From Bacillus sp. MM2020_4 (lineage in GTDB: Bacteria > Bacillota > Bacilli > Bacillales > Cytobacillaceae), in the NCBI RefSeq assembly GCF_011250555.1, contig NZ_JAANMZ010000011.1, positions 1 to 64,000 on the forward strand: a stretch of DNA of 64,000 bases. Reading direction: 5' to 3'. Below the pieces are notes generated by a model. The model was given only the letters and a program-made list of their open reading frames with translations, searched no databases and was not told the DNA's origin. Position numbers and translations under genes: made by a program. Below, in pieces: positions 60,656-64,000 of the stretch (position 1 is its first letter; every line of letters starts with the position of its first letter).

Positions 60656-60683
60656 TCAAAAAGGGATGGAAAGGAACGTGGAT

Positions 60684-61112
60684 ATGGAACCATATTTTGT
60701 TTCAACAAGAGAAATTCAGCTTTATTATGCAGATACCGATATGATGGGTGTCATTTATCATGCCAATTATTTAAAGTTTTTCGAGCTTGGTAGAACCGGG
60801 TTTATTGAGGACCTCGGCTACAGTTATCTCTCCATGGAAGAATCCGGATACTATGCGCCAGTCTATGATATTCAGATTACATACAAAAAACCATTACGAT
60901 ATGGCGATCAAGCATTTGTAAAGACTTGGGTCGAATTAAATGACGGAATAAAAACCATTTATGGCTACACCATTGTAAACGGTGAGGATGACGTGTGTGC
61001 CGTAGGGACATCCACTCACATTATTGTAAAAAAAGATAATTTCAGACCGACATCATTTAAAAAGGCTTTTCCAGAATGGTACGTAAAATACGAAGAAATC
61101 AAGAAAAAATGA
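60684..61112 (+). CDS. yneP: hotdog-fold acyl-CoA thioesterase YneP
   Basis: A 142-residue 4-hydroxybenzoyl-CoA-thioesterase-type hotdog protein. The catalytic Asp is in YYADTDMMGVIYHANYLKFF, followed by GRTGFIEDLGYSYL and the typical ITYKKPLRYGDQ strand. ATG 60684 has GGAAAGGAACG upstream, while an in-frame ATG six codons earlier lacks a site. Syntenic with B. subtilis yneP. Acyl substrate not predictable. Confidence 0.92.
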   Translation: MEPYFVSTREIQLYYADTDMMGVIYHANYLKFFELGRTGFIEDLGYSYLSMEESGYYAPVYDIQITYKKPLRYGDQAFVKTWVELNDGIKTIYGYTIVNGEDDVCAVGTSTHIIVKKDNFRPTSFKKAFPEWYVKYEEIKKK

Positions 61113-61155
61113 ACACTCGGAATGCCTCCATATAAACAATGGTGAGGTGAATAGA

Positions 61156-61473
61156 ATGGCCTTTGGCATAAAACGAGATGAAATTAGGGAATGGAAAGGA
61201 AAAATTGATCACGGTGAGATCGCCTTTTTAACCCATTATTGGCTTGATGACCGCTTTCCAGGCAGTAAGACAGTAACCAAGGTGGGTTGTGGTGACCTTG
61301 AAAAATTAGCCGCTTGGGGCAAAAAACATGGTTTAAAAAAGGAATGGATTCATCATCGAATCGATGGCTATTCCCATTTTGACTTAATCGGTGATAGACA
61401 AAAAGAAATTTTGATAAAAGAAGGTCTGCAAGAACATATTTGGAAAAACAAAACAGGCTCACTTGAGAAGTAA
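61156..61473 (+). CDS. yneQ: conserved hypothetical protein YneQ
   Basis: A 105-residue soluble protein with conserved aromatic and charged patches (IAFLTHYWLDDRFPGSKTVT, WIHHRIDGYSHFDL). Located between yneP and the HesB-like gene, exactly as in B. subtilis. GAGGTGAATAG precedes the ATG at 61156; a GTG three codons earlier overlaps it. Function unknown. Confidence 0.9.
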   Translation: MAFGIKRDEIREWKGKIDHGEIAFLTHYWLDDRFPGSKTVTKVGCGDLEKLAAWGKKHGLKKEWIHHRIDGYSHFDLIGDRQKEILIKEGLQEHIWKNKTGSLEK

Positions 61474-61516: not shown

Positions 61517-62671
61517 TTAATGGAGCCATTGGCTCATATGTTCTTGAATTTCTTTATATGTTGCGTCGGCATTAGAAAGTCCGTATGCTCCGGCATTTTC
61601 TAAAGGTACGATACGAAATTGATGATATTTTTGACTTGTCACGAATGTTGGAGAAAACACAGGGTTTGAGAGCTCAATCGTGTTGCCTTTTTCTGAAACA
61701 TGTTTGGTAATATCTATTGTGGCTAACCCACCAATATCCTTATAATCCCCATATTGTGCAGATAGAAAATTCCCTAATGAATAAACCACAAATGATTTGC
61801 GGCCATCCGTCGTCGGAATCCATTTCATTGGCTGCAATACATGCGGATGGGAGCCAAAGATAATATCTACACCCTCATTAGCCAAGAAATTCGCCAAATC
61901 CTTTTGTTCATCAGTCGGGATTCGCTGATACTCCATCCCCCAATGAATACTCATCACCACAACATCTGCTGCCTTTTTAGCACGATGAATTTCATTCTTC
62001 ATGATTTCTCGATCGATCAGGTTGACAAGATAGTCTTTTCCAGTCGGAACAGAAATTCCATTTGTGCCATATGTGTATGAAAGAAAGGCAATTTTAATGC
62101 CATTCTTCGTAATGACACGCAAATCCTCTCGATCCTTCTCATCAATGAAACTCCCGACATGTGGTAAACCAATACTATCTAAATAGGCGGACTCTGACTG
62201 AATTCCTTTTTCCCCTTTATCCAATGAATGGTTATTGGCTGTTGAAACGATATCGACTCCGGAATGGACGAGCGCACTGGCAACCTCGTGCGGACTATTG
62301 AACATGGGATACCCGGATAAACCCAATTCTAGACCACCTAACATACTTTCTTGATTTGCCGTCAGTACATCTGGCTTCTCCAATAATGGTTTCACAGGCT
62401 CGAACATGGGATCAAAACTATATTCTGCACCATTAAAAGCGTCTACATAGACAGGACTATGGATAAGAATATCGCCAATCGCACCGAGCGTAACCTTTTC
62501 AGTCAACTCATGATTGATATTGATGGATGGGCGTGTTTTATGGTCTTTCGTTACGTATACCATGTCATCCTGTTTAGACACTTGATTTTGCTGAATAATC
62601 CAGACAGACGCCGCAGCAACAATACAAACCAAAATAATGAATGTGGAGGAAATAATAGCTTTTTTCTTCAT
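61517..62671 (-). CDS. CapA/PgsA-family metallophosphatase-like surface protein
   Basis: A 384-residue protein with an N-terminal membrane anchor (residues about 5-25) and an extracellular CapA domain: GAIGDILIHSPVYVDA near 54 supplies metal ligands, then TANNHSLDKGEKG, SIHWGMEYQR and GSHPHVLQPM follow the calcineurin-like pattern. Relatives participate in poly-gamma-glutamate capsule export or anchoring, but no capB/capC genes are here. Inserted between yneQ and the yneR-position gene. Confidence 0.88.
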   Translation of the reverse strand: MKKKAIISSTFIILVCIVAAASVWIIQQNQVSKQDDMVYVTKDHKTRPSININHELTEKVTLGAIGDILIHSPVYVDAFNGAEYSFDPMFEPVKPLLEKPDVLTANQESMLGGLELGLSGYPMFNSPHEVASALVHSGVDIVSTANNHSLDKGEKGIQSESAYLDSIGLPHVGSFIDEKDREDLRVITKNGIKIAFLSYTYGTNGISVPTGKDYLVNLIDREIMKNEIHRAKKAADVVVMSIHWGMEYQRIPTDEQKDLANFLANEGVDIIFGSHPHVLQPMKWIPTTDGRKSFVVYSLGNFLSAQYGDYKDIGGLATIDITKHVSEKGNTIELSNPVFSPTFVTSQKYHQFRIVPLENAGAYGLSNADATYKEIQEHMSQWLH

Positions 62672-62802
62672 TTAATCACCTTTACCCATCACGTTATCAT
62701 GCAAATTATTTCTATGCTCATTGTTTATACTATATTATATTTAAGAATAACATTAAATCTATTCTTGGTGGACTAATTAAAAATGATTGGATTGTGAAAA
62801 AA

Positions 62803-63093
62803 ATGTTTCGGATTACCCCGAGTGCATACGAAAAATTACTATACACCGTAAATAACGAGAAACAAACACCAGATGAAACACTGTTCTTACGTTTAAGTAT
62901 GGGGATCGGTTGAGGTGGTCCAAAATTAAATCTGTCTCTGGAAGAGCGGAAAATACAAGGGGATACTACGTTTGAGTTTGGTGAGCTCATTATCCTTATC
63001 CATGAAAAGGATTTTGTTTATTTTGACCAAACTAAGCTCGATTATATTCAGGATGTAATGGGAAATAAAACATTTAAATTGTTAAAAATGTAG
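62803..63093 (+). CDS. HesB/IscA-like selenoprotein at the yneR position
   Basis: A 96-residue HesB/IscA-fold protein interrupted by TGA at 62911-62913. Reading through gives MFRITPSAYEKLLYTV ... LRLSMGIG-Sec-GGPKLNLSLEE ... FEFGELIILIHEKDFVYFD and a stop at 63093. Sec37 falls exactly where IscA-type proteins have their first conserved Cys (GCxG). The sequence on both sides aligns as one protein, so this is not a pseudogene. HesB-like selenoproteins are a known family in selenium-using bacteria. ATG 62803 is preferred; GTG 62794 is possible. The ribosome binding site is weak. A terminator follows. Confidence 0.88.
62931..62950 (+). promoter_or_regulatory. candidate bacterial SECIS hairpin of the HesB-like gene
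   Basis: TCTG-T-CTCT-GGA-AGAG-CGGA folds into a four-pair upper stem, a single bulged U on the 5' side and a four-pair lower stem. The apical loop starts with GG, 26 bases after the TGA. A bulged U plus loop G is the defining pattern of the E. coli fdhF-type SECIS. Confidence 0.82.
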
Positions 63094-63097
63094 ATCA

Positions 63098-63127
63098 AAG
63101 GAGCCTCCACAGTGGACGCTCCTTTTT
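63098..63127 (+). terminator. terminator after the HesB-like selenoprotein gene
   Basis: AAAGGAGC/GCTCCTTT stem with an inner CCAC/GTGG pair and TTTTT tail, five bases after the TAG, confirming the gene end beyond the internal TGA. Confidence 0.9.
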
Positions 63128-63146: not shown

Positions 63147-63320
63147 TTATTCTTCCATTTCGAAAAAAAATTCAATTAATTCATCAAAATTATTCGTTGT
63201 TTTTATCGGAAAGCTGTCAGTCATTTCTCCGTTCCTGGTAAACTCAACAATAAATTCATTTACATCTGGGTTATTCGAAACAACGGTTGAAAAAATAAGA
63301 TCCTGTTCCACCTCTTGCAT
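63147..63320 (-). CDS. small hypothetical acidic protein
   Basis: A 57-residue acidic protein (MQEVEQDLIFSTVVSNNPD ... FDELIEFFFEMEE) with no membrane segment or cysteine. GGAGGGA precedes ATG 63320. Family not recognised. It is convergent with the HesB-like gene. Confidence 0.65.
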   Translation of the reverse strand: MQEVEQDLIFSTVVSNNPDVNEFIVEFTRNGEMTDSFPIKTTNNFDELIEFFFEMEE

Positions 63321-63478
63321 CAAAATCCCTCCACTCTTGTAGTTTCCATCCATACTTATATACTACAGAAGATATAGATGAATGACCGGAGTGATTCTGA
63401 ATTTTTTATGAAAAATAAAAAAGAACCGTTTAAGGTCCATTAATAAAATAATAAAAAGTAATTAAACTTTGAGAAATG

Positions 63479-63627: not shown

Positions 63628-64000
63628 TTACAGCCATTTGATTTTGGGCTCTGTTTTGTCAATGATTCTTTTTATATTTGCCCGATGTCTGTAAATGACA
63701 AAGGATGCCAGTAAAAACACGACGATCAACAAGGGGATGTCCCATTTTTGCACAAATCCTTCCATGACTGCAAATAATATAGCGATAATTCCGGCAATCA
63801 TCGATGACAAGGAAACATATTTTGTTATGTACAAACTAATAAAGAATGCGACTAATACGGTTAAGAACAAATAGGGTGCTGCAAACAATAGAACTCCACC
63901 AGAAGTAGCGACGGCTTTCCCGCCACGAAATCCAGCGAATAGAGGGTAAGTATGTCCCAAAACAGCAAACACACCAGCCAATAATGGGTTCATATCAATC
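63628..64000 (-). CDS. plsY: glycerol-3-phosphate acyltransferase PlsY, partial (5' end outside the window)
   Basis: The C-terminal 123 residues of the acyl-phosphate-dependent acyltransferase that makes lysophosphatidic acid. The second conserved loop motif [18 protein letters not shown] (phosphate-binding) is visible, followed by three or four membrane helices and a basic tail. The frame stays open to the window edge; an internal ATG at 63993 is not the real start. Position corresponds to B. subtilis yneS. Confidence 0.94.

Follow-up and report, generated by a model that had tools for sequence, protein, structure and literature searches.

HesB-like selenoproteins and their described relatives

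HesB-like proteins are among the commoner bacterial selenoproteins, as a 2016 survey shows (PMC5029168), and in the accessible parts of a 2026 review and of a study of a methanogen member their function is not established (PMC13188914, PMC11097638). The family is described as an old one in the available portion of an earlier analysis (PMC1794560). By number of organisms it ranked sixth in the 2016 survey, 86 organisms having 90 such proteins between them (PMC5029168). Mutagenesis together with 75Se labelling served to identify the methanogen member, the function of which is not clear (PMC11097638), and the 2026 review lists the family, with its UxGP motif, among the selenoproteins found computationally (PMC13188914). 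In the available parts of a mostly open-access literature (PMC9312934, PMC13188914, PMC1794560, PMC5029168, PMC11097638) nothing was found that connects HesB-like selenoproteins with clusters of sulfane-sulfur genes, and a likewise mostly open-access search for work on selenoproteins together with IscA/Bacillaceae or with Neobacillus found none. A further relative within the superfamily, YneR of Bacillus subtilis, has been identified as PdhI, an inhibitor of the E1 component of pyruvate dehydrogenase that was modelled with Y31 in the active-site pocket, according to the accessible part of that report (PMC10090944).

The gene considered here lies in the genome of Bacillus sp. MM2020_4, which was placed near Neobacillus. 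The window analysed is the whole stretch of 64,000 nucleotides at the start of contig NZ_JAANMZ010000011.1. A sequence-only reading had proposed that a HesB/IscA-fold selenoprotein takes the place of yneR in this window. The gene represents a variant, widespread in the order, of a selenoprotein family already described and not a new kind of selenoprotein. Its subfamily is best read as a selenocysteine (Sec)-obligate, divergent relative of the NCBIfam families TIGR01911 and NF038090, distinct from YneR/PdhI.

The gene, its product and the A-type carrier fold

The coding sequence of the HesB-like selenoprotein (62803..63093, forward strand) most likely starts at ATG 62803, ends with the TAG at 63091-63093 and encodes 96 residues with Sec at position 37, an assignment based on the frame, the relatives and PF01521. 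The single internal stop of the frame 62794-63090 is the TGA at 62911-62913. In a profile alignment this codon falls on the GC of IscA-type chains, in agreement with its earlier placement at the first conserved Cys of the HesB/IscA fold, and with the start at 62803 the 59 residues that had been counted beyond it are exact. A forward-strand gene had thus been rightly recognised within 62794..63127, but both of its boundaries probably need correction. The GTG at 62794 probably lies 9 bases ahead of the true start, since the relatives begin at the equivalent of 62803 with an MF/LF codon that matches the ATG of the window gene; by eye, a Shine-Dalgarno-like sequence precedes this start in some of them. 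The former end takes in a probable intrinsic terminator, a hairpin with a U tail (63097..63125, forward strand; folding z -3.38), which was not among the results of a pattern scan. A promoter scan found no promoter-like site.

The product matches PF01521 (Fe-S_biosyn, HesB superfamily) with 28.2 bits, above the gathering cut-off of 26.3, and its predicted model has a pLDDT of 95.4. In a fold search with this model the matches at E ≤ 0.001 were nine chains of IscA, SufA, AQ_1857, HI1723 and DsrR. TM-scores were 0.74-0.80 over six IscA and SufA chains (1x0g_A/C, 1r94_A, 1s98_A, 2d2a_A/B) and 0.50 for 1x0g_B and D. The family score, the TM-score of 0.80 to IscA and the conserved in-frame TGA bear out the assignment to the HesB/IscA-fold selenoproteins. 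DsrR (2k4z) shares the HesB-like fold, with a TM-score of 0.76 to the Sec protein. DsrR is linked to sulfur oxidation and is not known to be a selenoprotein.

The window protein differs from IscA and SufA in having Sec for the first Cys and in having no C-terminal CxC, and does not have the three conserved Cys of the A-type carriers (one Cys plus the C-terminal CxC). In a 31-row alignment (A4) the Sec position is the only one conserved among the Cys sites, and 28 of the 31 rows are otherwise free of Cys. The window protein lacks the C-terminal CxC ligands of those carriers, and conventional binding of an Fe-S cluster is therefore unlikely. An Fe-S scaffold or carrier with Sec in place of a Cys ligand would be suggested by the fold, by membership of PF01521 and by TIGR00049 (iron-sulfur cluster assembly accessory protein), which matches 31/31 A4 members at E < 0.01, the window protein scoring 37 bits against a cut-off of 58.8. 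The lack of any conserved Cys besides the Sec position, and of the C-terminal CGC that is present in the IscA-type proteins of L160 and L172, makes such a carrier improbable; in one variant of it, a cluster may be bridged by Sec alone in a dimer.

Among the described selenoprotein families TIGR01911 (HesB_rel_seleno) shares with the window protein the superfamily, Sec at the same Cys and the UxGP motif, which is found in 30 of the 31 A4 rows including that of the window protein. The two differ in that the window protein, at 13.7 bits, falls below the cut-off of 66.35, shows no Cys form among the strong matches listed and has a related group in sulfur clusters. NF038090 (IscA_HesB_Se) matches all 31 A4 members at E < 0.01, the window protein reaching 30.5 bits against a cut-off of 85. 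With scores below both NCBIfam cut-offs, genes of this type could be entered in annotations as truncated.

Further members of the fold were seen beside these families. In one divergent HesB-fold group, L156 (5335-5598, reverse strand) has Sec where L158 (4873-5145) and L159 (5043-5309) have Cys at the same site, which is a usual sign of a TGA that stands for Sec; the L156 copy and selB of genome G314 are separated by about 5 kb. An in-frame TGA is also present in two more divergent genes of this fold, at L155 (5375-5665) and L157 (5304-5585, reverse strand), the latter near the classical TIGR01911 group (57.4 against 66.35 bits) and from the same order.

The locus and its relation to yneR

The window gene and its closest relatives, called subfamily A here, occupy a conserved chromosomal locus, as had been proposed. 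Across 46 A loci (two genomes being included twice, as L085/L112 and L089/L114) the order is yneP, yneQ, yneR on the opposite strand (26/46), a CapA-like gene (36/46), the Sec gene and plsY (45/46). In the window these neighbours are a yneP-like gene at 60666..61112 (forward strand; placed by synteny in the related loci), which we take to encode a thioesterase, a yneQ-like gene at 61147..61473 (forward strand), named by the earlier reading and by synteny with no family above cut-off, a divergent gene at 61517..62671 (reverse strand), the product of which is presumably CapA-like, and, cut by the window end, a reverse-strand gene at 63628..64000 that we assume to be plsY-like. Between the Sec gene and plsY lies a small convergent open reading frame of 68 codons (63147..63353, reverse strand), which has a match in 21 of the 46 loci and found no match in a family search.

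The proposal that the Sec gene replaces yneR was rejected, since both genes are present in 26 of the 46 loci and YneR is a different family by tree, profile and fold. Like 20 of the 46 A loci, the window has no local yneR match, in keeping with the earlier reading. In five genus genomes without a Sec gene at this locus (L179-L183), yneR, capA and plsY are retained there, and YneR homologues were found in at least 189 of 193 genomes of the family; the window's own genome has two YneR-like genes away from the locus, 34% and 33% identical to the YneR of L096. A sequence search with the L096 protein against PDB chains gave no match, and it was a fold search that identified it as YneR, its model superposing on YNER of the integrative entry 9a4q with a TM-score of 0.96 at 50% identity. 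For the Sec protein the corresponding values are 0.54 and 16%, as against 0.80 for IscA. In the tree the YneR group is set apart by a branch of 5.14 with support of 100/100.

The likeness between the Sec protein and YneR/PdhI thus extends to the superfamily, the neighbouring locus and an aligned loop position, whereas the two form separate families and coexist at the locus. In a profile alignment (probability 92, E 6.7e-7) Sec37 falls on YneR residue 34, at which 28 YneR sequences have C in 16, F in 6, S in 4, H in 1 and Y in 1. The comparison of Sec with Cys across YneR orthologues that had been suggested is therefore inapplicable, YneR being a separate family. These data also bear on the reading of the Sec protein as a YneR/PdhI-like plug of a 2-oxoacid dehydrogenase E1 active site, in which the selenol would make the plug redox- or lipoyl-sensitive. 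The position of Sec37 three residues after the counterpart of Y31, the inhibition of pyruvate dehydrogenase E1 by PdhI and the presence of yneR near the Sec gene in over half of the A loci are in its favour. Against it are the distance of YneR in tree and fold, the occurrence of Leu, Val or Phe, and never Tyr, at the Y31 counterpart in all 31 rows, and the sulfur-gene neighbours of related genes in 24 of 37 loci described below, and we regard such a plug as quite improbable.

Subfamily B and the sulfur gene clusters

A second group, subfamily B, is 35-43% identical to the window protein and sits elsewhere in genomes. The tree did not resolve A and B as sisters (19 of its 33 inner branches are open, with long rows inside the A fork). 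By Pfam, neighbours at B loci include TusA plus rhodanese, rhodanese plus metallo-beta-lactamase, TauE, DsrE, CsoR-family, OsmC and glutaredoxin proteins and a CoA-disulfide reductase that carries a rhodanese domain. A locus was counted as positive if at least one of nine sulfur-gene queries matched. On this basis sulfur genes are present at 28 of 38 B loci, at 24 of 34 once the four query-source loci are left out, and at 22 of 34 when rhodanese-only loci are also discounted. Three divergent B-like loci (L168-L170) add 0/3, giving 24/37 among loci that did not supply queries and 28/41 overall, so that sulfur clusters are absent from 13 of 41 B-type loci, among them these three most divergent ones. 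No such cluster was found at the 46 A loci or in 32 control stretches. The controls comprise nine stretches, eight with a yneR-like gene (six of those being the same locus without a Sec gene) and one with selB, plus a further 23 (105 kb). The loci were drawn from match lists and not at random, and their sulfur-cluster rate is compared with the control stretches only; L184-L203 were typed as B by score band and a B-type match. Two broken copies of the Sec gene (L153, L154) still lie in sulfur clusters (2/2), and selB and tRNA-Sec were not found in their two genomes. At L106 (5436-10102), in one genus genome, subfamily B copies are themselves clustered, two unbroken and one partial copy that starts past the Sec part.

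The sulfur clusters of subfamily B, together with the missing ligand Cys, suggest sulfane-sulfur or persulfide chemistry at the selenol rather than Fe-S scaffolding. It could also be supposed that the protein is a metal or metalloid ligand, or a detoxification protein, in which Sec would bind Hg, As or Cu. A gene of the CsoR family (PF02583, metal-sensitive repressor; assigned at the family level and not as CstR) is present at 16 of 38 B loci, and the available part of the 2026 review proposes metal-binding Sec in other families (PMC13188914). The remaining identified B neighbours are rhodanese, TusA, DsrE, TauE, CoA-disulfide-reductase and OsmC genes, and a metal-binding role appears very doubtful.

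Conservation of the TGA

In a search of 61 genomes of the genus all 62 matches listed above 50 bits hold the TGA, three of them with a TAA as well. The 35 matches listed above 106 bits are of type A and come from 35 separate genomes; the 27 of type B score 50-68 bits. In a sample of 397 genomes of the order, each of the 57 matches listed above 78 bits holds one TGA, the matches listed at 71 and 64 bits are two broken copies, and those listed at about 50 bits or less are mostly without a TGA. Two of these low-scoring TGA-less matches were examined (L160 and L172) and are IscA-type proteins with a C-terminal CGC. These TGA counts are of matches in which the search reported a TGA inside the match. 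By contrast, the 62 sequences aligned at the TGA position were selected by a pattern that contains TGA, and in that alignment the column is there by construction. In the family at least 148 of 193 genomes have a match at E 1e-8 or better, and the one match listed without a TGA (G128:C130) is a contig-edge fragment that starts past the Sec position. An unrelated residue in orthologues had been named as evidence against a selenoprotein; it is the TGA that was found, in 62/62 and 57/57 of the matches listed, and no Cys form of the window's subfamily appeared among the strong matches listed in the genus, family and order searches. Among the genomes that carry relatives, the named ones are of Neobacillus and Bacillus sp., with a small number of metagenome bins. 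An A match is missing from 26 of the 61 genus genomes, and 11 of the 61 have selB yet no A or B match above 50 bits, from which it follows that the Sec gene is dispensable.

The SECIS hairpin

The bacterial SECIS at 62931-62950 (forward strand), 17 nt after the TGA, folds as it had been drawn, with pairs U-A, C-G, U-G and G-C, a bulged U (62935), pairs C-G, U-A, C-G and U-A, and a GGA loop in which the GG occupies 62940-62941. Folding energy alone is weak evidence for a SECIS. Over 26 nt around the hairpin z is -2.28, but over 54 nt it is -0.65 and 53 of 200 shuffles fold equally well.

The comparative evidence, which is drawn from the aligned relatives, is strong. Among 50 distinct sequences 98.8% of 400 cells are paired, with U-A replaced by G-C in 8 and U-G by U-A in 16. 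None of 500 shuffles reached the observed value for cells paired, for double-change cells or for covariation, and 11 of 500 did so for the other two measures. When the hairpin was slid along the alignment 45.5-66.5% of cells were paired; the double-change count does not discriminate by itself, because one slid version gave 10 such cells against the 9 observed. Over all pairs of 47 sequences, with relatedness uncorrected, pS falls from 0.764 ahead of the TGA to 0.100 in the codons of the hairpin and returns to 0.765 further downstream, and pN/pS after the TGA is 0.324 at a pS of 0.77. The protein past the TGA is thus under selection, and the hairpin under a separate constraint at the level of RNA. 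The hairpin codons are near invariant (CTG 50/51, TCT 51/51, CTG 52/52, GAA in 46 or GAG in 6 of 52, GAG 52/52, and CGG in 36/36 Arg rows). The hairpin of subfamily B is paired in 97.1% of 70 cells, with covariation no higher than in shuffles; it has a paired A/G-U where that of subfamily A has the bulged U, and its register is slightly shifted.

The Sec decoding machinery

The window's genome contains SelB (346 bits against a cut-off of 242) and a tRNA-Sec over the gathering score with the anticodon TCA. Among the open reading frames beside selB and tRNA-Sec no selA was seen by eye, which does not imply its absence from the genome. Near the tRNA-Sec of this genome (L204, 5531-13625) there are, by eye, genes like those of a PQQ-type dehydrogenase and of pqq biosynthesis. 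In the genus selB was found in 59 and tRNA-Sec in 60 of 61 genomes. G009 is without both and also without a TGA match, and G045, a 720-contig assembly, is without selB and has tRNA-Sec. Two or three tRNA-Sec matches per genome were seen in G053, G001, G025, G040, G055 and G060.

The gene tracks selB in the order: among the matches listed, selB is present in 47 of the 50 genomes with a match above 78 bits and in 132 of the 347 others (Fisher 1e-14, with genomes taken as independent). In this search the best 3 selB candidates per genome were scored and the exceptions were searched again. The three order genomes with the gene and no selB match are G389, which has tRNA-Sec (480 contigs), and G452 and G523, in which neither selB nor tRNA-Sec was found on the renewed search. 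G452 carries an unbroken copy beside a broken one, G523 a single unbroken copy, and both unbroken copies keep the TGA and the hairpin. In G454, without selB and tRNA-Sec, there is a broken copy only. Our reading is that these three genomes (G452, G523 and G454) have recently lost Sec decoding, the unbroken copies being counter-examples to the association. That translation ends at the TGA, leaving the remainder as a relic, is hardly credible, for although the unbroken copies of G452 and G523 would fit it, the TGA, the SECIS and the downstream protein are conserved across the order sample, and broken copies occur where selB is gone.

A proposed role for the selenol

Binding of SelB to the hairpin would deliver Sec-tRNA-Sec to the UGA 17 nt upstream, giving a 96-residue protein of the A-type-carrier fold with one selenol, that of Sec37, held in the strand-turn-strand loop that in IscA carries the first ligand Cys. 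That Sec is inserted in this SelB- and hairpin-dependent way, at this position of the predicted protein, is almost certain from the sequence evidence. The selenol would then accept or reduce sulfane sulfur, as a persulfide or an Se-S adduct, or another soft electrophile. For subfamily A such a role is argued by its resemblance to subfamily B only, and is put forward tentatively, as plausible but somewhat short of likely. As a whole, the data are probably best explained by a Sec-obligate branch of the HesB-like proteins that is engaged in selenol and sulfane-sulfur chemistry rather than in Fe-S scaffolding. A more speculative possibility, in which we place less confidence, is that the Sec-obligate HesB-fold proteins of the order are selenol-based persulfide carriers or reductases, those of subfamily B acting in the rhodanese/TusA/DsrE/TauE clusters and those of subfamily A as their stand-alone housekeeping counterpart.

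With no Cys form among the strong matches listed, no Fe-S ligand Cys and sulfur-linked relatives, the role of Sec in this fold becomes directly testable. If the proposal is true, it would give a role in sulfur trafficking to the HesB-like selenoproteins, a family so far without a known function.
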